From an uncultured Oscillospiraceae bacterium (lineage in GTDB: Bacteria > Bacillota > Clostridia > Oscillospirales > Oscillospiraceae), in NCBI GenBank assembly GCA_944385095.1, contig CALWVS010000001.1:1-64000 (forward strand): a DNA stretch of 64,000 nucleotides, read 5' to 3'. Made by a program: the position numbers and the translations under genes. Positions 46,947-62,898 of this stretch are shown here, piece after piece. The notes beneath the pieces are model-generated. The model ran no database searches, was not told the DNA's origin, and saw only the letters and a list, made by a program, of their open reading frames with translations. The number at the start of each line of letters is the position of its first letter. Position 1 is the stretch's first letter.

Positions 46947-48014
46947 TCAAGCCTCTAGATATGCCAGGATCTGACGCACCATTTCCTGTTCAATATCGCC
47001 TCCATTCTGCCAAACCTGGCTCCATGCAACGGTATATTGAACTGCATCATCAATATGCCACCTGGGCTGCCAGTGGAAGGTGTGTTTTAATTTGGTGCAA
47101 TCTAGCTTTAAAAAGTTTGCTTCATGAGGGGCATTGGGCTGGGCATGGCTGGACCATGTTAGTCCATTGCCCCATGTTTGACAGAACAAATCCACAAGAT
47201 GCCCTGTTGTAACACAGTCACAGTCATCAGGACCTACATTGTACCAACCAGCATAGTTGCGATTCTCAAACTGTTTTTGTGCAATCATAAGGTAGGCAAA
47301 GAGTGCCTCTAAAACATGTTGATAGGGGCGAATAGAATGGGGGTTTCTCACAATAATTTCTTTTTTTGAGATTGCAGCTCGCACACAATCTGGAATGATG
47401 CGGTCATTGGCAAAATCGCCACCCCCGATGACGTTGCCTGCCCGTACAGTGGAGACAGAAGGGGCATCCGGAGCATGGAAAAAGCTGTTGCAATAACTAT
47501 GGGTAACCAGTTCAGAACAGGATTTTGAGTTGGAATAGGGGTCATAACCGTCTAGCATCTCATCTTCCCGATAGCCCCAACACCACTCCCGGTTCAAGTA
47601 CACTTTATCTGTTGTAACATTCACAACAGATTTCACAGGAGTGCCTGCACAGCGTACACATTCCAATAAATTGACAGTCCCCATTACATTGGTCTCATAT
47701 GTGAGAACAGGATTTCGATAGCTGTCACGAACAATGGGTTGTGCTGCCAGATGCAGTACGATTTCAGGTTGCACTTCATCGAAAACCTTTATCAGTGTCT
47801 GTTGCTCCCGAATATCCCCAGTCCATGAAGTAATTTTTTCCGAAAGCCCTGACAGAGCAAACAGATTTGGCTGTGTAGGAGCAGACAAAGAATACCCTGT
47901 AATTTCTGCACCAAACAGGTGTAAAATCTCACATAGCCATGCCCCTTTAAAACCAGTATGCCCTGTAATCAATATTCTTTTTCCATGAAAAAAGGTTGGG
48001 TTTAGTATGCCCAT
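46947..48014 (-). CDS. rfbG: CDP-glucose 4,6-dehydratase
   Basis: Converts CDP-D-glucose to CDP-4-keto-6-deoxy-D-glucose for 3,6-dideoxysugars or related surface sugars. The 355-residue SDR protein has the NAD motif ITGHTGFKGAWL, HLAAQPIVRDSYRNP, the Thr-Asp in NVTTDKVY and YxxxK as YSNSK. Its ATG shares one base with the rfbF stop codon (TGATG), so translation is probably coupled. Confidence 0.94.
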   Translation of the reverse strand: MGILNPTFFHGKRILITGHTGFKGAWLCEILHLFGAEITGYSLSAPTQPNLFALSGLSEKITSWTGDIREQQTLIKVFDEVQPEIVLHLAAQPIVRDSYRNPVLTYETNVMGTVNLLECVRCAGTPVKSVVNVTTDKVYLNREWCWGYREDEMLDGYDPYSNSKSCSELVTHSYCNSFFHAPDAPSVSTVRAGNVIGGGDFANDRIIPDCVRAAISKKEIIVRNPHSIRPYQHVLEALFAYLMIAQKQFENRNYAGWYNVGPDDCDCVTTGHLVDLFCQTWGNGLTWSSHAQPNAPHEANFLKLDCTKLKHTFHWQPRWHIDDAVQYTVAWSQVWQNGGDIEQEMVRQILAYLEA

Positions 48015-48796
48015 CAATCTGCCCACACTTTCCATGGGGCTTTTCCTAAAGCCCACATTTCTTCTAGTTGTTGTTTTTCTCTCACTGTATCCATACACTG
48101 CCAGAATCCAGTGTGTTTATATGCCATAAGTTCCCCTTCCTTTGCAACCCGTTCCAAAGGGGATTTTTCCAGTATCACATCATCACCATCAATGTATTGG
48201 ATAAATTCTGGTTGACAGACCATATATCCAATGTTGATTAGGTTTCCATCGCCCTGTGTCTTTTCCCGAAATTCGTTGATATGCCCATCTGGATCAATAT
48301 CCAGCACACCAAACCGTTGACCGGCATTGTAGGCGGAGATTGTGACCAGTTTTCCATGGGAGCGATGGAACGCCAAAAGGTTTTTGATATTGATATTAGA
48401 TACACCATCTCCATAGGTTAACATAAATGGCTTATTACCTACAAAATCTTTAATTCGTCGAACACGTCCACCGGTCATGGTATGGAGTCCAGTATCTACC
48501 ACAGTAACCTTCCAAGGTTCAGAGGTATTTCGGTGTACAATAATTTCATTTTTACCCCTGGTAAAATCATAGGTAATATCAGAGGTATGTAGAAAATAGT
48601 CGGCAAAATACTCTTTGATTACATGTTGTTTATATCCAGCACAGATGATAAATTCGGTAATTCCATAGTAGCCGTATAACTTCATTATATGCCATAAAAT
48701 TGGCATACCACCCAAATCCACCATGGGTTTTGGCTTGAATTGGCTTTCTTCAGAAATTCTGGTGCCAAAGCCACCTGCTAAAATAACCGCTTTCAT
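48014..48796 (-). CDS. rfbF: Glucose-1-phosphate cytidylyltransferase
   Basis: Makes CDP-glucose from CTP and glucose-1-phosphate. The 260-residue protein has the nucleotidyltransferase start MKAVILAGGFGTRISEES, KPKPMVDLGG, TYGDGVS and the family-typical GYMVCQPEF and KHTGFWQCMDT. It feeds rfbG directly. No further gene of a dideoxysugar pathway is present here. Confidence 0.96.
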   Translation of the reverse strand: MKAVILAGGFGTRISEESQFKPKPMVDLGGMPILWHIMKLYGYYGITEFIICAGYKQHVIKEYFADYFLHTSDITYDFTRGKNEIIVHRNTSEPWKVTVVDTGLHTMTGGRVRRIKDFVGNKPFMLTYGDGVSNINIKNLLAFHRSHGKLVTISAYNAGQRFGVLDIDPDGHINEFREKTQGDGNLINIGYMVCQPEFIQYIDGDDVILEKSPLERVAKEGELMAYKHTGFWQCMDTVREKQQLEEMWALGKAPWKVWAD

Positions 48797-48854
48797 GTCT
48801 TTATCTCCTTACTATATCCACAATCCGACTATAAACGAGGGACAATGATCAGGA

Positions 48855-49796
48855 TTATCGTTCTGTACGGATTGGATTGGTGAGAAAGTCCTGATATGCC
48901 AAACGAATACCATCCTCAAGTTCAATTGTGTGGTGCCAGCCAAGAGCATGGCTTTTTGATACATCTAAAAGTTTACGTGGTGTACCATTTGGACGGCTGG
49001 TATCCCACAGAATTTTACCCTGATACCCAACGATAGATGCTACCAGTTCAGACAATTCTTTGATACTTAATTCTTTTCCAGTGCCTGCATTTACAGTTTC
49101 ATTTCCACTATAATGGTTCATTAAAAAGACACACAGATTTGCAAGATCATCTACATATAAAAACTCACGTTTTGGGCTGCCATCGCCCCAACAAGTGACA
49201 GTAGGCAGATTTTGCTCTTTGGCTTCATGAAAGCGACGAATCAGGGCTGGTAATACATGGCTGTGAGTGGGATGATAGTTGTCATTTGGACCATACAAGT
49301 TTGTAGGCATAACAGAGATAAAGTCGGTTCCATACTGACGATTTAGATACTCACAATATTTAAGACCAGAAATTTTTGCCAATGCATATGCCTCGTTTGT
49401 TTTTTCAAGCTCAGAGGTAAGCAGGTAACTTTCTTTCATTGGCTGAGGTGCCATGCGTGGATAAATACAAGATGATCCTAAAAATAAAAGCTTTTTACAT
49501 CCATTTTGCCATGCAGCATGGATAACATTCATTTCCATAGTCATGTTTTCATACATAAAGTCAGCGAGTGCCTGTTGATTTGCTACAATACCACCAACTT
49601 TAGATGCAGCTAGAAACACATAATCTGGTTTCTCTTGTTGAAAAAATGTCTCAACATCTAACTGTCTACACAAATCTAAATCATGATGAGTACGCGTTAC
49701 AATATTATCATAATCACAACGTTTCAGTTCACGTATAATGGAGGAACCAACCATACCCGTATGCCCTGCTACATAAATTTTAGAATTCTTTTCCAT
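48855..49796 (-). CDS. fcl: GDP-L-fucose synthase
   Basis: Epimerase/reductase that converts GDP-4-keto-6-deoxy-D-mannose to GDP-L-fucose. The 313-residue SDR protein has AGHTGMVGSSIIREL, FLGSSCIYPRMAPQP, YALAKISGLKYCEYLN (YxxxK), MPTNLYGPNDNYHP and WGDGSPKREFLYVDD. ATG 49796 follows GGAGGGC. Gmd, which makes its substrate, is not in the window. It is the first of three same-strand sugar-nucleotide genes. A weak minus-strand promoter (TATAAT at 49877-49872) may serve it. The 309 bases upstream (49797-50105) hold only promoters, no gene that I can see. Confidence 0.93.
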   Translation of the reverse strand: MEKNSKIYVAGHTGMVGSSIIRELKRCDYDNIVTRTHHDLDLCRQLDVETFFQQEKPDYVFLAASKVGGIVANQQALADFMYENMTMEMNVIHAAWQNGCKKLLFLGSSCIYPRMAPQPMKESYLLTSELEKTNEAYALAKISGLKYCEYLNRQYGTDFISVMPTNLYGPNDNYHPTHSHVLPALIRRFHEAKEQNLPTVTCWGDGSPKREFLYVDDLANLCVFLMNHYSGNETVNAGTGKELSIKELSELVASIVGYQGKILWDTSRPNGTPRKLLDVSKSHALGWHHTIELEDGIRLAYQDFLTNPIRTER

Positions 49797-50027
49797 ATTA
49801 AGCCCTCCAAAAGCTCTCTGCTTAAATACAAGCAGTGAATCTATAAAAATAGAAACTTCAATTCTATCACCATTATACACGTTTCCTTCTATCCGTAAAG
49901 TTGTTTTGTTATTTTTTTGGAGATATAGGTAAATATGATATAGAGAACAGTAGATTCAAATAAAACATGCCTTCTTGTTTTATACCATACATCCCTTCTT
50001 AAATGACAGAAAAAAGCACAAAAATAT

Positions 50028-50105: not shown

Positions 50106-51377
50106 ATGGCTGTAAAAAATTTGTATACTGTAGTTGTGGCAGACGATGAGGATGAATTGCGGGAAGCTGTGTGTACCATGATTCCCTGGGAGGAGTATGG
50201 GTTTTGTCTGGTTGGAAGTGCCAGTAATGGATTAGATGCTTTGCAACTGGTAGAAAAACACGAACCGGATTTGTTGCTCACCGATATTCGTATGCCATTC
50301 ATATCAGGAATTGAACTGGCTCGACAGGTACGGGAAGTGCGACCAGCCATCAATATTGCATTTCTCAGTGGGTATGATGACTTTGAATATGCCAAACAGG
50401 CGATTCAATATAACATTATTAGTTATATGCTGAAACCATTGACCATTGAGGGCATTGGTGCAGAACTGCGGATTATCAGACAAAAAATTGATGCACAATT
50501 TGAACTATTTCGACAGGCTTCTAAGGTGGAAGGGGCAGATATGCGTGCAGCAATGGTCATGCCTCTGGTGTTGGATGACTATGCCCATATGGAGGAAAGT
50601 GGGCAAATAGAGACATATGCGCAGCAATGTGGTCTGCTACGAGATGAAAAAGACAGACCCTATTATACAGTGATGGTGTCAACATTACAGGAGGAAGACG
50701 GAAGCAGAGGTGCACCGCCATCATTTGTAGCCTCTGTGGATTCTCTGGCTGGCAAGTACCTGCGCAGTATCAGTTTTTTTACTTCTGGTCGAGTGGTTAC
50801 TGTACTGTTGGGAAATCCATCCGATTTTGAAGAATATCTACATATTTTGGCAGATGAGATTGTACAGATGGCTTCCCGTGTACTTGGGAAAGGGTGTCGT
50901 ATAGGAATTAGTCGTATTGTCAGAACGCTGGGAGAAATACACACTGCATATCGAGAGGCAATGGAGGCGTTGGGGCAGGGAGACGGTAAAATTCAGTTTA
51001 TCAGTGACCTGGCACCAGCAGTCAAAGGGGGCAACCTGTTGTGTAAACGGGCCATAGATACCATTTCTCAACATTATATGGATGCCAATCTCTCATTGGT
51101 TTCTTTAAGTGCCATGTTGGATGTAAGCCCAAATCACCTCAGTGCATGTATCAAGAAATATGCAGGAGAAACTTTTATCAATATGTTAATCCGAAAGAGA
51201 ATGGAGGCAGCAAAAGAACTGCTGGCAAACCCAGAATTCAAAATTCAGGATATAGCCCAGCGTTGTGGCTATACAGACCAGCACTATTTCAGCTATTGTT
51301 TTAAAAAATACTGTGGAGAGTCCCCAAACGCTTTGCGTAGACGACTGGAGGCAGAAAAAGGGAGTGAAAGCAAGTGA
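50106..51377 (+). CDS. YesN-type response regulator with AraC DNA-binding domain
   Basis: A 423-residue regulator. The receiver domain (residues about 7-125) has acidic pocket DDE at 13-15 and phospho-acceptor D60 in LLTDIRMP. A middle region of unknown fold follows, then the AraC-type double HTH at the C-terminus (SLVSLSAMLDVSPNHLSACIKKY; KIQDIAQRCGYTDQHYFSYCFKKYCGESPN). The YesN/YesM class usually controls carbohydrate uptake. Its stop overlaps the kinase start (GTGA). Confidence 0.93.
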   Translation: MAVKNLYTVVVADDEDELREAVCTMIPWEEYGFCLVGSASNGLDALQLVEKHEPDLLLTDIRMPFISGIELARQVREVRPAINIAFLSGYDDFEYAKQAIQYNIISYMLKPLTIEGIGAELRIIRQKIDAQFELFRQASKVEGADMRAAMVMPLVLDDYAHMEESGQIETYAQQCGLLRDEKDRPYYTVMVSTLQEEDGSRGAPPSFVASVDSLAGKYLRSISFFTSGRVVTVLLGNPSDFEEYLHILADEIVQMASRVLGKGCRIGISRIVRTLGEIHTAYREAMEALGQGDGKIQFISDLAPAVKGGNLLCKRAIDTISQHYMDANLSLVSLSAMLDVSPNHLSACIKKYAGETFINMLIRKRMEAAKELLANPEFKIQDIAQRCGYTDQHYFSYCFKKYCGESPNALRRRLEAEKGSESK

Positions 51378-53089
51378 AACGGCACTTCTCCCATACGGGG
51401 ATACGGATTACTACAATTTTGGTCTCTATGGTTGTAGGGGTTGTGGCAGTTATCCTATGTTGTTGTATTTTATTGTTTCTTGACCGATATCGCAGTGCTA
51501 TGATACAAACCGCCCGTACCACAAGTGCTCAGGCAGTGAGTCAGGTGTCCAACACGGTGAGCAATTATTTGTGGGATATGGGGCAGGCAATGGAACTGGT
51601 GGAGCAATCCATTGCACAGCCAGAACAGGAGAGAAGTGAGCGGCTAGATTCCTTTTTGACCTTTCGACCGGATGTTGTGGCAGTGACAAGCTATACTGCG
51701 ACTGGAGAGTTAATGCAGTGTTGGTCTCTGGGCAGAGAGCCAAAAGAGAATCTGTTTGCCAATCTTTCCTTCAATTTACAACAGGTGCAACATGCACAGG
51801 GAACTGTGATGTCAGCCCCCCATGTAACCACTTTATTTGAAGGATATTATCCCTGGGTTGTCACCATGACAGCCCCACTGCCTCAGGGCAGTGAGGTGAG
51901 TTGGGTCTCACTGGATTTGAGTTTTTCCAGTATTTCCAGCTATATCAACAATGTAAGCATTGGGCAACGAGGCTACTGTTTTCTGATGGATGCAAAAGGG
52001 AACATTGTTTATCACCCCCAACAACAGCTTCTCTATGCTGGGTTAAAAAAAGAGGACACAGAAAGTCTGGCAACATTGTCAGATGGGATCTACAACGATG
52101 ATGCCATCATTCATTGTATTACCAGTGTGGAGGGGAGTGATTGGAGAGTGGTGGGGGTGAGCTATGTTGATGAACTGGTCAATCGAAATGTAGTGGAGAT
52201 GTTGAAAATTTCCGGTGTTGTTGCAGTCGTAATATTATTGGTTGCTTTACTGACCAGTTGGCTCCTTTCCAACTTTCTTGGGCAACCCCTGAAAAAATTG
52301 GCATCTGCAATGGAGAGTTTTGAGGCAGATGCAGATCACTTCACTTACTGCCCTGTTGGCGGCACAAAAGAAGTGCAGGAGTTGTCCTGTTCATTTGGAC
52401 ATATGGTAATGCGCATTCAACAGTTAATGACAACAGTACGAGAAGAAGAAATCAATCTGCGCAAAACAGAACTCAAGGCACTGCAAGCCCAAATCAACCC
52501 ACATTTTCTATACAATACATTGGATTCCATTGCTTGGATGTGTGAGAGAGGACGTAATGCAGATGCAGTGAATATGGTACATGCACTGGCCTGTCTATTC
52601 CGTATCAGTATTAGCAAGGGGCATGAACTCATTCCCATTGCAAAAGAAATCCAACACGCAGAAAGCTATCTGCAAATACAGAAATACCGCTATAAGAATC
52701 AATTCACTTACCAATTTGATGTAGACCCACAGTGCCTAGATTACTACTGCAATAAAATCACCCTTCAGCCAATTTTGGAAAATGCCATCAATCATGGCTT
52801 GAATTTGCTGGTGGATGAAGGACAGATTTTGGTGAAGGTGTATCAGGATGGGGAGGATATCATCTTCTGTGTACAAGATAATGGGGTTGGTATGAGTCAG
52901 GAAAAAATTGAGGCGGTGCTACAGGATGGCAAACGGGAAAATACAGGGATTGGCATAAAAAATGTCAATGACCGGCTGAAAATTTATTTTGGCAAAGAAT
53001 ATGGACTGCAAATTTCCAGTAAACCGGATGAGGGAACCTGCGTCACCATCAGAATGCCCAAACAGCGGGAGGGAGAGTATGGCAAGTAG
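51374..53089 (+). CDS. YesM-type sensor histidine kinase
   Basis: A 571-residue kinase. It has an N-terminal transmembrane helix (TTILVSMVVGVVAVILCCCILLF), an extracellular Cache-like sensing domain (about 40-270), a second transmembrane helix (ISGVVAVVILLVALLTSWLL), HAMP, then the His_kinase domain (QINPHFLYNTLDSIAWM; His is the acceptor) and an HATPase domain (LQPILENAINHGL, DNGVGMS, GTGIGIKNVNDRL). The start is GTG 51374 inside the overlap with the regulator gene. Its end overlaps the binding-protein gene by 11 bases. Confidence 0.93.
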   Translation: MKRHFSHTGIRITTILVSMVVGVVAVILCCCILLFLDRYRSAMIQTARTTSAQAVSQVSNTVSNYLWDMGQAMELVEQSIAQPEQERSERLDSFLTFRPDVVAVTSYTATGELMQCWSLGREPKENLFANLSFNLQQVQHAQGTVMSAPHVTTLFEGYYPWVVTMTAPLPQGSEVSWVSLDLSFSSISSYINNVSIGQRGYCFLMDAKGNIVYHPQQQLLYAGLKKEDTESLATLSDGIYNDDAIIHCITSVEGSDWRVVGVSYVDELVNRNVVEMLKISGVVAVVILLVALLTSWLLSNFLGQPLKKLASAMESFEADADHFTYCPVGGTKEVQELSCSFGHMVMRIQQLMTTVREEEINLRKTELKALQAQINPHFLYNTLDSIAWMCERGRNADAVNMVHALACLFRISISKGHELIPIAKEIQHAESYLQIQKYRYKNQFTYQFDVDPQCLDYYCNKITLQPILENAINHGLNLLVDEGQILVKVYQDGEDIIFCVQDNGVGMSQEKIEAVLQDGKRENTGIGIKNVNDRLKIYFGKEYGLQISSKPDEGTCVTIRMPKQREGEYGK

Positions 53090-54059
53090 ACAGAGTATAT
53101 GGATTGTAGTAGGGCTCTTGTTGTTTGGGCTTTGTGGTTGCACCACACAGACAACTGCACCAGAACAGCATTCTGTGGCTCTAGTGGCAAAATCTACAAA
53201 AACTGAATTTTGGTTATCTGTTTTCGCAGGTGCAGAGGCAGCAGCCACAGAATACAACTTAAAGCTGACAATTATGGGACCGGAGACAGAGGAGGACTAT
53301 GAGACGCAGAATGAAATGGTGGCACAATGTGTAGAACAGGGGGCACAGGCACTGGTATTTTCTGCGATTGATTATGATAACAATGGAGCAGCGATTGATG
53401 CAGCGGCAAAAGCTGGCAGCAAAATTGTAGCAATTGACAGCAATGTAAATTCTGAAGCGGTCAGTACCTATATTGGAACGGATAATTACGCAGCAGGGCA
53501 GATGGCGGCTCAGGCAGCGTTGGAGCGAGTGGAAGGGCAACTGAACATTGGCATTATTAACTACGATATGAGCAGTGCCAACGGACAGGAACGGGAACGA
53601 GGTGCCATTGATACCTTTACAGCGAGTGGAAGGGCAAAAGTATATGGTGTCATCAATACATTGGCAGAGGCATCCCAGTCCAAATTGGATACAATCAATC
53701 TACTGCAACAATACCCTGATATCAATGTGTTACTGGCGTTCAATGAGCCAACCAGCATGGGGGCAGCACAGGCAGTGGAGGAAATGGACTGTGTGGAACA
53801 GATTTTTTTGGTGGGGTTTGATTCCAATGTAGAAACGGTAGATGGTTTGCAGGAGGGGAGTGTGGATGCACTCATTGTCCAGAATCCCTATGCAATGGGG
53901 TATCTAGGGGTGGAGAGTGCCTATAAATTACTGACTGGTCAGGGGGGCACATTACAGGAGACTGTGGATACATCCACTCAGATTGTAGACAGAAATAATC
54001 TGTTTTCTATGGACAGTCAAAAAGCCCTGTTTTCCTTTGAACAACGCAGAATACCGTAA
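53079..54059 (+). CDS. Sugar-binding lipoprotein, probably a sensor partner of the kinase
   Basis: A 326-residue periplasmic-binding-protein type I fold (ribose/galactose-binding class) with a lipoprotein signal (LFGLCGC, lipid Cys C21). Here the domain order is the normal one: VALVAKSTKTEFWLSVFAGAE at the start, ALVFSAIDYD, then YIGTDNYAAGQMAA and VLLAFNEPTSMGAAQA. ATG 53079 follows GGGAG and overlaps the kinase gene by 11 bases. No permease genes follow directly. This is like XylFII, which senses xylose for LytS in Clostridium. A role as ligand sensor for the kinase is inference. Confidence 0.88.
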   Translation: MASRQSIWIVVGLLLFGLCGCTTQTTAPEQHSVALVAKSTKTEFWLSVFAGAEAAATEYNLKLTIMGPETEEDYETQNEMVAQCVEQGAQALVFSAIDYDNNGAAIDAAAKAGSKIVAIDSNVNSEAVSTYIGTDNYAAGQMAAQAALERVEGQLNIGIINYDMSSANGQERERGAIDTFTASGRAKVYGVINTLAEASQSKLDTINLLQQYPDINVLLAFNEPTSMGAAQAVEEMDCVEQIFLVGFDSNVETVDGLQEGSVDALIVQNPYAMGYLGVESAYKLLTGQGGTLQETVDTSTQIVDRNNLFSMDSQKALFSFEQRRIP

Positions 54060-54171: not shown

Positions 54172-54244
54172 TACAGGTGTCAGGTGGGACCTCACTGGTG
54201 AAACCCACAAAATGTGAGGAATGAATGAAAAAAGGAGAATGAAC

Positions 54245-55555
54245 ATGAAAAAAGCACTTGCACTTACCTTAGCGGCAACCATGGCTCTTGGTTTAACTGC
54301 CTGTACAGGCGGCACCACATCTTCAGGTTCTACAACAGGCTCCACATCAGGTACAACCTCCAGCGCAGCCAGCAGCGGCACAGGAACCTCTCAGGTTGCC
54401 AACAAGGACAAGCCCTTAGTTTGGTTTAACCGTCAGCCCTCCAACAGCTCCACTGGTGAGTTGGACATGAACGCTCTGAGCTTCAACAAAGATACTTACT
54501 ATGTTGGTTTCGATGCCAACCAGGGTGCCGAACTTCAGGGCACCATGATTATGGATTACATTAAGGCAAACATCGACACCATCGACCGCAATGGCGACGG
54601 TATCATCGGCTATGTATTGGCCATTGGTGATATTGGTCACAATGACTCTATTGCCCGTACTCGTGGCGTACGTGCTGCTCTGGGTACCGCAGTTGAGGTA
54701 AATGGAGCCATTGACAGTGCTCCAGTTGGTACTAACACAGATGGCACTGCAACCGCAGTAAAGGACGGCACACTGGAGGTCAATGGTAAGACCTACACCA
54801 TCCGTGAGCTGGCTTCTCAGGAGATGAAGAACTCCGCTGGTGCTACTTGGGATGCTGCGACTGCTGGTAACGCCATTGGCACATGGACTGCTTCCTTTGG
54901 TGATTCCATTGATGTAATTGCTTCTAACAACGACGGTATGGGTATGTCCATGTTCAACGCATGGTCTAAGGAGAGTGGTGTTCCCACCTTCGGTTATGAT
55001 GCCAATGCTGACGCTGTGGCAGCCATTGCAGAAGGTTACGGCGGAACCATCAGCCAGCATGCTGACGTTCAGGCTTATCTGACTCTGCGTGTACTGCGCA
55101 ACGCTCTGGACGGTGTGGATATTGATACTGGTATCGGAACTGCTGACAGTGCTGGCAATGTGCTGACAGATGATGTGTATTACTATGATGAGGAGCAGCG
55201 TTCCTACTATGCTCTGAACGTAGCTGTGACCGCTGAGAACTATCAGGACTTCATGGATTCCACAAAGGTCTATGAGCCAGTTTCCAACCAGCTAGATGCT
55301 GCCACCAGCCCTGAAAAGAGTGTGTGGCTGAACATCTACAACTCTGCTGATAACTTCCTCAGCGCTACTTATCAGCCCCTGCTGCAGAACTATGATGATC
55401 TGCTGAACCTGAAGGTAGAGTACATCGGTGGTGATGGTCAGACCGAGGCCAATATCACCAACCGTTTGAGCAACCCATCTGCCTATGATGCATTTGCCAT
55501 CAACATGGTGAAGACTGATAACTCTGCTTCTTATACTGCTCTGCTGAGCCAGTAA
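54245..55555 (+). CDS. mglB: Galactose/glucose-binding lipoprotein MglB, circularly permuted
   Basis: A 436-residue lipoprotein (signal peptide with LTAC, lipid Cys C20) with a Ser/Thr/Gly linker to about residue 53. The mature part follows E. coli galactose-binding protein (GBP), but starts at the strand matching GBP PVVFFNKEP (here KPLVWFNRQP). It runs to the GBP C-terminus (YYALNVAVTAENYQDFM, about 321-337). After a linker it ends with the segment matching GBP residues 1-100 (VWLNIYNSADNFLS to AFAINMVKT, about 360-424). GBP ligands are conserved: D369 and F371 (GBP D14, F16), N420 (N91), H132, D134, R138 (H152, D154, R158), W202 (W183), N229 (N211), D252 (D236); N256 is Q271. The calcium loop DRNGDGIIG is present. 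ATG 54245 follows AAAAGGAG. Codon choice looks adapted to high expression. Confidence 0.92.
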   Translation: MKKALALTLAATMALGLTACTGGTTSSGSTTGSTSGTTSSAASSGTGTSQVANKDKPLVWFNRQPSNSSTGELDMNALSFNKDTYYVGFDANQGAELQGTMIMDYIKANIDTIDRNGDGIIGYVLAIGDIGHNDSIARTRGVRAALGTAVEVNGAIDSAPVGTNTDGTATAVKDGTLEVNGKTYTIRELASQEMKNSAGATWDAATAGNAIGTWTASFGDSIDVIASNNDGMGMSMFNAWSKESGVPTFGYDANADAVAAIAEGYGGTISQHADVQAYLTLRVLRNALDGVDIDTGIGTADSAGNVLTDDVYYYDEEQRSYYALNVAVTAENYQDFMDSTKVYEPVSNQLDAATSPEKSVWLNIYNSADNFLSATYQPLLQNYDDLLNLKVEYIGGDGQTEANITNRLSNPSAYDAFAINMVKTDNSASYTALLSQ

Positions 55556-55678: not shown

Positions 55679-55797
55679 GCACTTCCAAGGAAGATTGACC
55701 CGGCAGGCTCGGCCTTTTGCTGACTCTGCCAAAACAGCCAGCTTCCACAAGGCTGGGAGAGGTGCTGTTGGAATTTGCAATAATGGGAGTAACTACA

Positions 55798-57306
55798 ATG
55801 GCAGATGCGAAAGACGATATTGTCCTGTCCATACGTGGTATGTGTAAGTCTTTTGGTCGCAATCGGGTGCTGGATCACATTAACTTGAACGTGAAGCGTG
55901 GCACTGTAATGGGGCTGATGGGCGAAAATGGTGCTGGCAAGTCCACCATGATGAAGTGTCTGTTTGGCACCTACCAGAAGGACGAGGGAAAAATTTTCCT
56001 GAATGGAAAAGAAATCAATTTTACAGGTCCTAAGGATGCGCTGGAAAATGGAATTGCTATGGTGCACCAGGAACTGAACCAGTGCCTGGAGCGCAATGTA
56101 ATTGACAACCTGTTTCTGGGGCGTTATCCTACCACATCTACCGGCATGGTAGATGAGGGACGCATGAAGAAGAAAGCTTCAGAGCTGTTCAGAAAGCTGG
56201 GCATGACTGTCAATTTGACACAGCCTATGCGCAATATGTCTGTTTCTCAGCGGCAGATGTGCGAAATTGCAAAGGCAATTTCCTATAATTCCAAAGTAAT
56301 TGTATTGGATGAGCCCACCTCATCTCTGACTGTGCAAGAGGTGGATAAGCTCTTTGAGATGATGCGGATGCTCAAGGAGCAGGGCATTGCTCTCATTTAT
56401 ATCTCCCATAAGATGGATGAGATTTTTGAAATTTGCGATGAAATTTCCGTGTTGCGTGATGGTAACTTGGTGATGACAAAAAGTTCCAAGGAAACCAATA
56501 TGAATGAGCTGATCTCCGCTATGGTGGGACGCTCTTTGGAAAGTCGTTTCCCACCAGTGGACAATACACCAGGAGATACCATTCTGTCTGTGCAACACCT
56601 GTCTACAAAGTATGCCCCGCATCTTCAGGATATTACCTTTGATGTGCGGGAAGGTGAGATTTTTGGTCTCTATGGTCTGGTGGGTGCCGGTCGTACCGAG
56701 TTGATGGAGACAATCTTTGGTGTACGAACCCGTGCAGCTGGTCGAGTTTACTTCAAAAACCGCCTCATGAACTTCAATAGTGCCAAAGAGGCAATCGACC
56801 ATGGATTTGCTATGATTACAGAGGAACGAAAAGCAAATGGATTATTCCTGAAATGTGACCTCACCTTTAACACCACCATTGCAAACCTGAACCAGTATAA
56901 GTCAGGCATTGCATTATCCGATGTAAAGATGGTCAAAGCAACCAATAAGGAAATTAAGACCATGCACACCAAATGTATGGGACCAGATGATATGATTGCC
57001 AGTCTGTCAGGCGGCAACCAACAGAAGGTGATTTTTGGTAAATGGCTGGAGCGGGAGCCGCAAATCTTTATGATGGATGAGCCAACCCGTGGTATCGACG
57101 TGGGTGCAAAGTACGAAATTTACGAGCTGATTATCAACATGGCAAAGCAGGGAAAAACCGTCATTGTGGTTTCTTCTGAAATGCCAGAAATTTTGGGCAT
57201 TACCAACCGAATTGGGGTGATGTCAAATGGACACCTCTCTGGAATTGTCAATACAAATGAGACAAACCAGGAGGAGCTGTTGAGACTCAGCGCAAAATAC
57301 CTATAG
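55798..57306 (+). CDS. mglA: Galactose/methylgalactoside ABC transporter ATP-binding protein
   Basis: A 502-residue tandem ATPase typical of CUT2-family sugar importers. First domain: Walker A GENGAGKST, signature-like SVSQRQMCEIAKA, Walker B VIVLDEPTSSL. Second domain: altered Walker A GLVGAGRTE (as usual for this family), signature LSGGNQQK, Walker B FMMDEPTRGIDVG. ATG 55798 follows GGGAG at 8 bases; the longer upstream frame has no ribosome site. mglC begins 15 bases after it. Confidence 0.95.
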   Translation: MADAKDDIVLSIRGMCKSFGRNRVLDHINLNVKRGTVMGLMGENGAGKSTMMKCLFGTYQKDEGKIFLNGKEINFTGPKDALENGIAMVHQELNQCLERNVIDNLFLGRYPTTSTGMVDEGRMKKKASELFRKLGMTVNLTQPMRNMSVSQRQMCEIAKAISYNSKVIVLDEPTSSLTVQEVDKLFEMMRMLKEQGIALIYISHKMDEIFEICDEISVLRDGNLVMTKSSKETNMNELISAMVGRSLESRFPPVDNTPGDTILSVQHLSTKYAPHLQDITFDVREGEIFGLYGLVGAGRTELMETIFGVRTRAAGRVYFKNRLMNFNSAKEAIDHGFAMITEERKANGLFLKCDLTFNTTIANLNQYKSGIALSDVKMVKATNKEIKTMHTKCMGPDDMIASLSGGNQQKVIFGKWLEREPQIFMMDEPTRGIDVGAKYEIYELIINMAKQGKTVIVVSSEMPEILGITNRIGVMSNGHLSGIVNTNETNQEELLRLSAKYL

Positions 57307-57321
57307 TGGGAGATAACGTAT

Positions 57322-58983
57322 ATGGCAGCGGTAAAAACAAATATTTTAACGGCTGAACAGGAGGCAAAGCTCCGTCAGTCCATTGATGAATATGTAGGCA
57401 GTATCCAAAGTAAGATTGATGCACTTCGTCAGGATGGCACCGATAAGGTGGTAGAATTGCAAAATAATTTGGACAGCCTGAAGCGTGACCGAATTTATAC
57501 ACAGCAGGAAAAAGATGCACTGGCAGCCAAGTGGACTCAGGAGCTGGAACAGGCAAAGGCAGTGGAAGCCAAAAACAAGGATGAAATTTCTCGTTTGATT
57601 GCAGATGCTGAGACCTATCTGAATGCACATTTTGATAAGGACTACTATCAGGCTGTGGTAGCAAGCTGTAAGGAAGAAAGAGCAGAGGCACAGGCAAAAT
57701 ATCAGGAAGCTGTGGCAAGACTTCAAAAAGAGCATCAGGAGACTATGTCTAAGCTCACAGATCAGCATGAGATTAAGGATGAGAAGTACGTCCATAAAAA
57801 TCGCCTGTTTGATGCAAAAATGCAGCTTGCCAAGAATTTGCAGGAAATTAAGGACAGACAACACAATGCCTTTGATCATCGCTATCATTTGATTGACCTG
57901 TTGCGCATGTCCCGCTTTACCATTGGGGAGACAATACAGCAAAAGTGGGAGAACTACAAGTATACATTCAACCGCCGTGACTTCCTGTTGCGCAATGGAC
58001 TGTATCTTGCCATTATTGTGATTTTCATTGGTCTGTGTATTGCAACTCCCATTATCAAAGGTCCCAATGTTCAGCTTTTGACCATGAACAATGTGTTGAA
58101 TATTTTGCAGCAGGCCTCTCCCAGAATGTTCCTGGCACTGGGTGTTGCTGGTCTGATTCTGCTGGCTGGTACTGACCTGTCCATTGGTCGTATGGTTGGT
58201 ATGGGTATGACAACCGCTACCATCATTATGCACCAAGGTCCCAATACTGGTTCTGTTTTTGGTCATATTTTTGACTTCTCCACAATGCCAGTGTTTGTTC
58301 GTGTTGTTCTTGCATTGGTAGTATGTATCATATTGTGTACTGTTTTTACTACCATTGCTGGTTTCTTTACAGCAAAGTTTAAGATGCACCCCTTTATTTC
58401 CACCATGGCAAATATGCTGGTCATTTTCGGATTGGTTACTTACTCCACAAAAGGTGTTTCCTTTGGTGCTATTGACCCCAACATTCCCAAAATGATCATT
58501 CCTCGCATCAACAATTTCCCCACCATTATTTTGTGGGCAATTGCAGCCATCGTTGTGGTATGGTTTATCTGGAACAAGACCACCTTCGGTAAGAATCTGT
58601 ATGCAGTAGGTGGCAACCCTGAAGCAGCAGCAGTGTCCGGTATCTCTGTATTCTGGGTTACTGTGGGAGCCTTTGTTATGGCTGGTATTCTGTATGGCTT
58701 TGGTTCTTGGCTGGAGTGTATCCGCATGGTTGGTTCCGGTTCTGCCGCTTATGGACAGGGCTGGGAAATGGATGCCATTGCAGCTTGCGTGGTAGGTGGC
58801 ATTTCCTTTACTGGTGGTATTGGCAAGATTTCTGGTGTAGTTGTTGGTGTGTTTATCTTCACTGCTCTGACCTATGCCCTCACCATTCTGGGTATTGATA
58901 CCAACCTGCAATTTGTGTTCTCTGGTATTATCATTCTGGTGGCTGTTATGCTGGACTGTCTGAAGTATGTTCAGAAGAAGTAA
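57322..58983 (+). CDS. mglC: Galactose ABC transporter permease MglC with N-terminal coiled coil
   Basis: A 553-residue protein. Residues about 222-553 are a CUT2 permease like MglC: ALGVAGLILLAGTDLSIGRMVG, FTAKFKMHPFISTMANML, NLYAVGGNPEAAAVSGI, EMDAIAACVVGGISFTGGIG, LDCLKYVQKK, with about 8-10 helices. Residues about 10-220 are an extra, charged, heptad-like helical region rich in Glu/Lys/Gln (for example VELQNNLDSLKRDRIYTQQEKDALAAK), with no signal peptide, so it should be in the cytoplasm beside MglA. Usual MglC proteins are about 330-340 residues and lack it. There is no stop or internal ribosome site separating the parts. Confidence 0.93.
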   Translation: MAAVKTNILTAEQEAKLRQSIDEYVGSIQSKIDALRQDGTDKVVELQNNLDSLKRDRIYTQQEKDALAAKWTQELEQAKAVEAKNKDEISRLIADAETYLNAHFDKDYYQAVVASCKEERAEAQAKYQEAVARLQKEHQETMSKLTDQHEIKDEKYVHKNRLFDAKMQLAKNLQEIKDRQHNAFDHRYHLIDLLRMSRFTIGETIQQKWENYKYTFNRRDFLLRNGLYLAIIVIFIGLCIATPIIKGPNVQLLTMNNVLNILQQASPRMFLALGVAGLILLAGTDLSIGRMVGMGMTTATIIMHQGPNTGSVFGHIFDFSTMPVFVRVVLALVVCIILCTVFTTIAGFFTAKFKMHPFISTMANMLVIFGLVTYSTKGVSFGAIDPNIPKMIIPRINNFPTIILWAIAAIVVVWFIWNKTTFGKNLYAVGGNPEAAAVSGISVFWVTVGAFVMAGILYGFGSWLECIRMVGSGSAAYGQGWEMDAIAACVVGGISFTGGIGKISGVVVGVFIFTALTYALTILGIDTNLQFVFSGIIILVAVMLDCLKYVQKK

Positions 58984-59018: not shown

Positions 59019-59065
59019 AGAAAGTCCCGGCAGGATGTGATCACATCCTGCCGGGACTTTTTGTA
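59019..59065. terminator. Terminator after mglC
   Basis: Very strong 20-bp perfect inverted repeat (59021-59060, AAAGTCCCGGCAGGATGTGA and its complement) with a T5 tail on the plus strand and A residues for the minus strand. It lies between convergent mglC and asnS. Confidence 0.92.
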
Positions 59066-60630: not shown

Positions 60631-62748
60631 TTATGGTATGGGATGGGTTGGGGTTTCCTCAATAAAACAAGCAACTTTCTGATAGACCTCGCTTTGCTTG
60701 ATTACCATCAACCTGACATCATCTGGTTCATATTGAGAAAGAATTTGTTTCACTTGTTCTGCTAACTCTAATAGCTCAGGGCTGGCAGAGGCTAGGCGTT
60801 CTTGATGTTCGATGAAATCAAGTTGGATCTCAACCATATCTTTCAGATCAGGGTGTGCCTTAAGAGCCAAATTTAAGAAACTCACTGCCTGAGTAAACTG
60901 TTGTGTCTGTAGGGCATGTTCTTCCTGTACAAGATACCATAGGCACTGGTGGAGTGAGGGCAGGATGGAGATATCATCCTGGGAAAGGTTTGGCTGATAA
61001 ATACAGGACAGAAGACGATGAGCCAGTGTGCATAGATGTTGTAACAGAGAAACAGCATCTTTATGGTGGGCAAAGGTTGGATTGCACAAAGCATAAAAGA
61101 TGATTTCCACCTGAAAGTTTAGTGCAATGGTACCAAAAAAGCTGTCCCCTTCCCACTGGAGTAGATGAGGTACAAATTCTGCATCATACTTTCCAAGTGT
61201 TTTTGCAATGGGGAGCAACTCTTCATGGGGTTGTGTCTGGTAGAATGACAGTGGGAAATGGGCATTGCATGCAATGACATGATTAAGAACAGGGGGAGGG
61301 ATTTCCCCCCAGTTCTGAATGTTTCCTAAAATACACTCAATTTCAGTAGGGTTCTCCATAGCCATCACCTGTGCGCCTTTGCCCATATCAATGGATACGT
61401 CTTGATAGAGCCGCCACTCCTCCCGTGCCTGACCGGGCAGGAAAGAGAGTGCCATCCGCTTCAGACATCCTTCCCGACGGGCAACGGCACGGGGTGAGGT
61501 CTGTTCCACGTGCAGAAAATGCGACATATGCTCTGCCACAATGTCAGGAGTTTCCGGGCAGTGCAGCAAAAGAACCGCAGCGTCCAGAATGGCCATGGCA
61601 ATTTTGGGTGGGGTGTTGTCCGACACGGGAATGGTGCGCAGTGCCGTTAATGCCCGTTCGTCCTGATGTAGGTTGGCAGCGGACATCGCCTCCATAATGT
61701 AAATTTCCTGCTGTGTCTGTATGGCAGCACGATAGAGACCGGACACCCCGAAATTGGTGATGGGGTACCCTCCGGAATAGTATTTTTGAATGCCTGCATA
61801 GTAGGATGGAACCAGCTCCAGCACAGCTTCATAACGGTCTGAGAAGAAGGCGCGATAAATGGACTGATAGACAATATCCACCTCTGTATAGGGGGAGTGG
61901 GGGAACAGCTGTTGCGCCAGAGCCACCCAGTCGTCAAACTCAGGCATCTGGTAGCGGTTGGCCGCATCCACACATTTTCGTAAAATAGCCGGACTTAACT
62001 CTTCCCAGTGTGCGCCATGAGGTTCCATGGTAATCCATCGAACGCAGGCTCTGGCATATTGTTGCGCCTTTTCCGGAATGCCAACACCAGCATCCAGACA
62101 CTCCATCAACAGACCTCCGTCTTGAGAAAATCCATCTTCCAGCTGTGGCTCCAACAGAGCCAGATTGCGCTCAGCTTTTCTCAGTGCATTTTCTTTGGTC
62201 TCGTAGGCGTAGCCATCGTGATGGAGAATGGTGTGAGTGAAGGCGTGCCAGCAGGAACCGGCTGGCAAATCCCACCGCTCATGAATGACACTGGTGTAGC
62301 GAATGCCAGTAGCCATGCGCAGCATGCGTATGGCAGCAAAGTCGGTGTATTCTCCCAGCATATCAGGGGTAATATAGTTGCGGATGGTCAGAGTACACAC
62401 AGTGAGGTGGTCGTACTGTCTGGCAGAGAGAAACGCCATCAGTTCAGACAAATCTTCGTCAAAAAATTCATCTGCATCAATGGACAGGTACCAGTCTCCC
62501 GATGCACGATCCATCACTGCGTTTCGGGCAGCGGAAAAATCATTGCACCAGGGAAAATCAAAGCAGAGATCTGCATACTGCATGGCAAGTTCACGGGTTC
62601 CATCGGTAGAACCAGTGTCAGCCACAATCAGTTCACATGGGATGGCATCCCGCAGAGGTTGCAGTGATTGAAAACACCGCTCAATACAGCGCATTTCATT
62701 TTTGACAATCATACCGATGGTCAAAATGGGCTTTTGAGTTGTTTCCAT
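60631..62748 (-). CDS. Family 2 glycosyltransferase with long helical C-terminal region
   Basis: A 705-residue protein. Residues about 8-230 are a GT2 (GT-A) domain: LTIGMIVKNEMRCIERCFQSL, ELIVADTGSTDGTRELA, the DxD-type motif SIDADEFFDED, and HERWDLPAGS. The remaining 470 residues are mostly helical and may be TPR-like repeats. It lies directly downstream of the flagellin gene on the same strand, so it is a good candidate for flagellin glycosylation; this is inference. ATG 62748 is chosen with AAAGGAG 11 bases upstream; the upstream in-frame extension runs through the flagellin terminator and is rejected. Confidence 0.85.
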   Translation of the reverse strand: METTQKPILTIGMIVKNEMRCIERCFQSLQPLRDAIPCELIVADTGSTDGTRELAMQYADLCFDFPWCNDFSAARNAVMDRASGDWYLSIDADEFFDEDLSELMAFLSARQYDHLTVCTLTIRNYITPDMLGEYTDFAAIRMLRMATGIRYTSVIHERWDLPAGSCWHAFTHTILHHDGYAYETKENALRKAERNLALLEPQLEDGFSQDGGLLMECLDAGVGIPEKAQQYARACVRWITMEPHGAHWEELSPAILRKCVDAANRYQMPEFDDWVALAQQLFPHSPYTEVDIVYQSIYRAFFSDRYEAVLELVPSYYAGIQKYYSGGYPITNFGVSGLYRAAIQTQQEIYIMEAMSAANLHQDERALTALRTIPVSDNTPPKIAMAILDAAVLLLHCPETPDIVAEHMSHFLHVEQTSPRAVARREGCLKRMALSFLPGQAREEWRLYQDVSIDMGKGAQVMAMENPTEIECILGNIQNWGEIPPPVLNHVIACNAHFPLSFYQTQPHEELLPIAKTLGKYDAEFVPHLLQWEGDSFFGTIALNFQVEIIFYALCNPTFAHHKDAVSLLQHLCTLAHRLLSCIYQPNLSQDDISILPSLHQCLWYLVQEEHALQTQQFTQAVSFLNLALKAHPDLKDMVEIQLDFIEHQERLASASPELLELAEQVKQILSQYEPDDVRLMVIKQSEVYQKVACFIEETPTHPIP

Positions 62749-62814
62749 AGGATGTAACACTCCTTTTACTATCGGATTTTGGAACAGGGACTGAAATACA
62801 ATCCACATTCCAAA

Positions 62815-62852
62815 AGCAAATAGAACTGGGGCGAGCCGTGCGCCCGCCCCAG
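62815..62852 (-). terminator. Terminator of the flagellin gene
   Basis: On the minus strand CTGGGGCG / CGCCCCAG with an 11-base loop is followed by TTCTATTTGCTTTT. It lies about 47 bases after the flagellin stop codon. Confidence 0.75.
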
Positions 62853-62898
62853 AAACATGCTTGTGATTTTGTTGTGTGGTCGTATCCACAGAACCAGA

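Follow-up and report, generated by a model that had tools for sequence, protein, structure and literature searches.

Gene organization of the locus

The features of the locus are collected in Table 1, with positions given for the window, i.e., the whole 64,000-nucleotide stretch of DNA that was analyzed. The central gene encodes a permuted, putative sugar-binding lipoprotein of the MglB type, and a sequence resembling a ribosome-binding site (AGGAG, 54233-54237) precedes its ATG. As in the TpMglB-2-like group discussed below, the gene adjoins those for an MglA-type ATPase (NF008215, 666 bits, below the cut-off of 828) and an MglC-type permease (NF007014, 272.6 bits, below the cut-off of 386). 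The terminator-like inverted repeat that follows mglC is one of 12 in the region, versus 9.7 expected by chance, and has the longest stem among them.

Directly upstream of the permuted mglB, the three ORFs at 50106-54059 overlap head to tail. The second binding protein of the locus, encoded by the last of these, gives a single uninterrupted match to PF13407 (residues 63-318), which corresponds to the ordinary order, and reaches no NCBIfam cut-off. Trios of binding protein, kinase and regulator, such as XylFII with LytS, are known from the literature, where the two names occur together in 13 papers. The three genes probably constitute a three-component sugar sensor, in which the second binding protein is probably the partner of the kinase.

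Two other regions, both on the minus strand, were noted in the window. The cluster at 46947-49880 encodes a GDP-L-fucose synthase-like protein (just under the cut-off), a glucose-1-phosphate cytidylyltransferase and a CDP-glucose 4,6-dehydratase, and is the start of a CDP-sugar route. The 752-residue product of the gene at 60631-62889 has, at its N-terminal end, a SunS-like glycosyltransferase region that scores 73.6 bits (cut-off 350).

Table 1. Features of the permuted mglB locus (positions in the window).
Feature	Position	Strand	Basis or remark
AraC-type response regulator	50106..51377	+	
Sensor histidine kinase	51374..53089	+	dCache, His_kinase and HATPase over cut-off; HAMP below
Second, ordinary (collinear) substrate-binding lipoprotein	52989..54059	+	PF13407; first start codon given
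Permuted MglB-type protein, putative sugar-binding lipoprotein, 436 aa	54245..55555	+	ATG at 54245, stop ends at 55555
Signal peptide with lipobox LTAC at its end	54245..54304	+	Sequence
Ser/Thr/Gly-rich linker, residues 21-53	54305..54403	+	Sequence
Equivalent of GBP ~83-307, residues ~54-337	54404..55255	+	Alignment to EcMglB; profiles
New connector from old C-terminus to old N-terminus, residues ~338-359	55256..55321	+	Gap between aligned segments
PF18610 (Peripla_BP_7), equivalent of GBP N-terminus, ligands D369 and F371	55313..55522	+	
MglA-type ATPase	55717..57306	+	NF008215; first start codon given, true start may be downstream
MglC-type permease, 553 aa	57322..58983	+	PF02653 over cut-off
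Extra N-terminal arm of MglC, ~210 aa, charged	57322..57951	+	Comparison with EcMglC and other MglC
Inverted repeat, 18 bp, terminator-like	59021..59060	.	Between mglC and convergent asnS

Segment order of the binding protein

The first-pass annotation had proposed, from the sequence alone, that the segments of this protein are rotated relative to the galactose-binding protein (GBP) of E. coli, EcMglB. Alignments and profiles bear this out, since both place the GBP N-terminus at the C-terminal end of the chain: residues ~54-337 correspond to EcMglB ~83-307, and residues 360-433 to EcMglB 5-77 (alignment and hhalign). The chain had been thought to open at GBP ~104; the actual opening is near EcMglB 83-86 (mature numbering), about 20 residues away. 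The predicted linker of about 20 residues between the two segments (~338-357) is present within the connector of Table 1, and so is the lipobox, the cysteine of which (residue 20) would carry the lipid.

In local alignment with EcMglB (from the E. coli K-12 genome, L114; mature numbering), residues 50-350 scored 213 against the whole protein, versus a mean of 39.0 (sd 5.9) for 300 shuffled sequences, and 72 of the 182 aligned positions were identical between residues 57-290 and EcMglB 86-275. The corresponding profile of the N-terminal part matched GBP between residue ~83 and the C-terminus with an hhalign E-value of 1.8e-33. The pairwise match of the C-terminal part is weak: residues 351-436 scored 42 against EcMglB 1-105 (300 shuffles: mean 26.6, sd 4.8, best 48), with identity at 20 of the 70 positions aligned between residues 360-433 and the EcMglB N-terminus. 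Against EcMglB 96-309 the same residues scored 29, at the level of shuffled sequences (mean 29.3). As sole proof, the single-pair alignment of this part was rejected as too weak, its score of 42 lying below the top shuffle.

The profile of the C-terminal part matched the N-terminal part of collinear GBPs with an hhalign E-value of 1.8e-5, over 68 columns in order, versus 0.27 for the remainder of GBP. These E-values are modest because the underlying alignment is of low diversity (63 rows, Neff 1.3). The same region carries PF18610 (Peripla_BP_7), with residues 357-426 matching positions 1-70 of 71 (136.3 bits, cut-off 36.8), but this model spans the moved segment only; a literature search by its Pfam name found no paper. 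The MglB equivalog NF011924, which has the ordinary order, matched in two stretches with 85.2 bits, under its cut-off of 420. Judged by these comparisons of sequence, the circular permutation relative to EcMglB is real.

Sugar ligands and calcium site

Ten sugar-contact residues of EcMglB are tabulated in the paper on TpMglB-2 (PMC4990184). Their equivalents in the window protein are D369, F371, N62, H132, D134, R138, W202, N229, D252 and Q271; nine of the ten are identical, the exception being Q271 for Asn-256, and all ten positions are invariant in the 63-row alignment, which was drawn from 81 sequences (the window protein plus L031-L110). The initial assignment of the D14 and F16 equivalents to D369 and F371 was right, whereas N420, which had been named as the counterpart of N91, equals EcMglB N66; the N91 equivalent is N62, at the start of the mature chain. 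The ligands of both parts have nevertheless been kept, as originally proposed, the tenth being a Gln as in TpMglB-2, and this supports the view that the permuted protein probably binds sugar. The calcium loop (D114, N116 and D118 of the window protein, plus D223) is also kept; the calcium site deviates in having Gly for Q142 and Asp for E205.

A known counterpart in Treponema

The first-pass annotation knew of no permuted GBP in nature. That claim to novelty is wrong, because a glucose/galactose-binding protein that is permuted in nature has been published with its structure, namely TpMglB-2 (Tp0684) of Treponema pallidum (PDB 5JX2, 6BGC, 6BGD; PMC4990184). A permuted protein of the GBP type is already known, and there is no new topology here. 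The paper, published in 2016, reports the crystal structure, the circular permutation, glucose binding and closure on the sugar; glucose is preferred to galactose, and a "fourth hinge" followed by an extended stretch occurs at the connector. It describes the topology as present in many Gram-positive bacteria too, with numerous gut commensals among them, and its tree includes one group of treponemes and spirochaetes and another labelled "Gram Positive/Gut"; the subclass names "Type Ic / Cluster Bc" are proposed (PMC4990184). Proteins of this group are characterized by the strand order 5-4-6-1-2-3 in the N-lobe and by a fourth crossover.

In a phmmer search of PDB sequences, residues 52/53-434 of the window protein matched 5JX2, 6BGD and 6BGC in one stretch (E 2.7e-90 to 2.6e-88), whereas the E. 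coli- and Salmonella-type GBPs were matched in two. The match covers residues 19-385 of the 387 in the 5JX2 chain, and the two proteins are collinear from end to end. The paper's search for homologues of TpMglB-2 called for matches over more than 90% of its length with aligned N-termini (PMC4990184), as was found for the window protein.

The two proteins share the rotated order across the full mature chain and the same kinds of operon partners; by its lipobox LTAC, the window protein would be a lipoprotein like TpMglB-2. They also share the altered calcium site (Gly for Q142, Asp for E205), the Gln at the position of EcMglB N256 (Q271 here) and the other sugar residues, except at the position of EcMglB D14, which is Asn in TpMglB-2 and Asp here. 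They differ in that N62 lies 42 residues past Cys20 in the window protein, versus 18 in TpMglB-2 (in the numbering of the paper), and in about 14 extra residues of the window protein around positions 153-172. Moreover, the host is here Gram-positive, by its named relatives, and sensor genes lie upstream. EcMglB shares the family, the sugar ligands and the calcium loop with the window protein, but its segments are in the ordinary order.

Distribution of the permuted protein and its operon

When 84,980 species genomes were scanned, 462 stretches were found to encode a relative, and the best 80 of these were kept for detailed analysis. The permuted protein was found in all 80 of these best loci, in each case spanning residues from 47 or earlier to at least 434, and in 79 of them in one piece. 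The titles of these 80 include many Lachnospiraceae, Oscillospiraceae, Flavonifractor, Agathobaculum and similar gut names. Within the same set of 80 out of 462, MglA follows the permuted mglB in 75 loci, and the other five end at most 423 bases from the gene; MglC was seen in 71, and the other nine end at most 1,490 bases from mglB. Close relatives of both the window kinase and the second binding protein lie upstream in 33 of these 80 best loci. In a further locus (L084) a relative of the second binding protein is present and the kinase is in pieces, and at the other kept loci the available DNA either contains a more distant regulator, located on one side or the other, or lacks one.

PF18610 was rare in evenly drawn samples: counting the genome of the window itself, it occurred in 3 of the 291 genomes sampled for the class and in 2 of the 398 sampled for the phylum. 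In the window's genus, it was detected in 14 of 37 genomes, and an ordinary MglB (E <1e-40) in nine (G004, G007, G011, G013, G020, G025, G030, G032 and G035). None of the 37 carried both; the chance of such a lack of overlap is 0.0066, with kinship ignored and with many of the genomes being incomplete drafts. None of the five matching phage records contains most of the query. Plasmid-borne copies were observed: in Treponema saccharophilum the permuted mglB-mglA-mglC set (L183:8917-13405) is on a 382-kb plasmid, and in Agathobacter rectalis (L184) it is on a 252-kb plasmid, with integrase and IS91 genes a few kb away.

The N-terminal arm of MglC

The MglC protein of the window carries an additional N-terminal arm, in which no membrane segment is apparent by eye. 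Given the usual topology of MglC, the arm would lie in the cytoplasm. A heptad-like signal with a period of 3.5 emerged from a crude count, which does not by itself prove a coiled coil.

Most (73 of 75) of the complete MglC ORFs in permuted loci were at least 510 residues long, the shortest intact one having 510 (L100); the other two stem from a single split gene. Measured against EcMglC, the arms in permuted loci comprise 207-223 residues, with two exceptions (43 and 166). In collinear loci, all seven complete MglC proteins (EcMglC included) have 334-376 residues and arms of 0-21. In T. saccharophilum, the permuted MglB (46% identity) and MglA are followed by an MglC of 562 residues, the arm of which matches that of the window with an E-value of 2e-7 across an 82-residue stretch. 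The split gene is that of Eubacterium plexicaudatum ASF492 (L082:9008-10665), where two ORFs (177 and 397 residues) overlap and the break lies within the arm, reflecting either a broken gene or a sequencing error.

A search with just the arm retrieved the same 3 of 291 class genomes as PF18610. In a search of 60 relatives, the arm was found in 16 genomes and PF18610 in 14. One of the two genomes with the arm and without PF18610 (G026) has a fragment of the permuted protein at a contig edge; in the other (G009), the permuted protein was not found. In G009 (L188:2578-8157), the MglC frame continues from 1,333 residues antisense to an opposite-strand frame of 1,310 codons, an arrangement suggestive of a contig joint or rearrangement.

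Comparison with known domains gave two candidates, neither of which was retained. No Pfam model exceeded its cut-off on the window arm, the best being CotJB (E 0.021, 15.4 bits, cut-off 29), and the DUF3671 match to the MglC of a relative (E 0.0011, 18.9 bits) was under the cut-off of 34. Matches of the arm to PDB sequences were weak, the best being to a kinesin (E 0.019). In the literature search, none of the papers listed dealt with an MglC with an N-terminal extension, judged by titles and the beginnings of abstracts.

It is conceivable, if doubtful, that the permuted MglB and the armed MglC form a distinct importer subtype, in which gating or placement of the transporter may be a role of the arm, and that arm and rotation were fixed together and inherited as a package replacing the ordinary Mgl system. 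Shared inheritance would explain the link between arm and rotation equally well as a functional tie.

Origin of the permutation

In a tree of 24 MglA sequences, the 17 from permuted loci, including that of T. saccharophilum, split off with support of 100/100 (ultrafast bootstrap and SH-aLRT) from six collinear rows and EcRbsA on the opposite side; T. saccharophilum and G301 lie nearest the base of the permuted group. The rows of this tree were chosen by hand, its root is uncertain and the branches of EcRbsA, L120 and EcMglA are long. A quick tree of 39 rows (26 permuted and eight collinear) agrees with it and contains two partial sequences (L118 and L122) that were left out of the smaller tree. 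The simplest reading is that of a single origin and later operon transfer: the permutation would most likely have arisen one time only, within an ancestral gene for GBP, and then have spread with the operon between Clostridia and spirochaetes. Horizontal sharing is also suggested in PMC4990184. No duplicated or half-way gene was seen in the PF18610 samples (291 class and 398 phylum genomes, with few carriers); the permutation would presumably have come about by the usual route of duplication and trimming.

An alternative that the TpMglB-2 paper leaves open is recruitment of the C-terminal segment from a different binding-protein gene, with later convergence on the GBP N-terminus; the Treponema segment is there reported as 13% identical to EcMglB (PMC4990184). 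The similarly low pairwise identity here (20/70) and the modest E-values that go with the low Neff are compatible with such an event. We nevertheless consider it improbable. The C-part profile matched the whole collinear GBP profile (19 rows, EcMglB twice) with an E-value of 7.5e-5 (1.8e-5 for the N-terminal part), versus 0.7 for an RbsB-seeded CUT2 set and 0.34 for the family of the upstream sensor binding protein (52 rows). The CUT2 set (28 rows) is mixed: some of its members are binding proteins of the sensor type, and at least one, L180, is a collinear MglB. Both sets can be matched, because the GBP N-terminus, used as a yardstick, reaches 1.2e-22 and 4.8e-6 against them, respectively. Among six single CUT2 proteins of E. 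coli, EcMglB was the best (0.033), followed by AlsB (0.076), AraF (0.21), RbsB (0.27), XylF (0.56) and YtfQ (0.76); the second binding protein of the window gave 0.12. In addition, the D14 and F16 ligands are both kept in the moved segment. On these sequence grounds, the favoured reading is that the moved segment would be the N-terminus of GBP itself, and the rearrangement a true permutation.

Separate origins of the permutation in Clostridia and in spirochaetes might be suspected from the different phyla concerned and from binding proteins that are just 46% identical. The end-to-end collinearity with the Treponema protein, the single MglA group and the fact that T. saccharophilum has an MglC extended in the same way render this very unlikely. 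The probability that an assembly error, frameshift or misreading mimics the permutation is negligible, given the same protein on other contigs at all 80 of the best 80 loci out of 462 and the same topology in a crystal structure (PMC4990184), and no points in favour of such an error were found.

Membrane anchoring

The authors of PMC4990184 discuss the shifted position of the anchor and the notion that the permutation could suit membrane tethering. Of 100 permuted ORFs whose 5' end is closed (93 of them distinct), 91 have a lipobox-like motif ahead of the first strand. Lipobox-like motifs also occur in all five ordinary MglB proteins encoded beside mglA (L119, L120, L121, L126 and L132), in collinear loci from the same genus and order as the window, and lipid anchoring alone therefore needs no permutation.

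Proposed function and significance

Taken from its sequence relationships, the protein is, with a probability of about 95%, a permuted, TpMglB-2-like lipoprotein that binds the substrate of an ABC importer of the Mgl type (CUT2), which would take up glucose and/or galactose. By analogy with the solved homologue, both chain ends would build one lobe and a fourth crossover would join the lobes. The protein would close on its sugar in the manner of other binding proteins and pass it to MglC, with uptake powered by MglA. Upstream, the kinase and regulator, with their own ordinary binding protein, would probably sense the sugar and turn the operon on, as suggested by the order of the genes.

In place of a false claim to novelty, the analysis documents that many gut Clostridia have the topology published for Treponema. 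It also touches two questions that the TpMglB-2 paper leaves open (PMC4990184): the anchoring result bears on the relation between permutation and membrane tethering, and the profile comparisons bear on the origin of the moved segment, which resembles the N-terminus of GBP itself.
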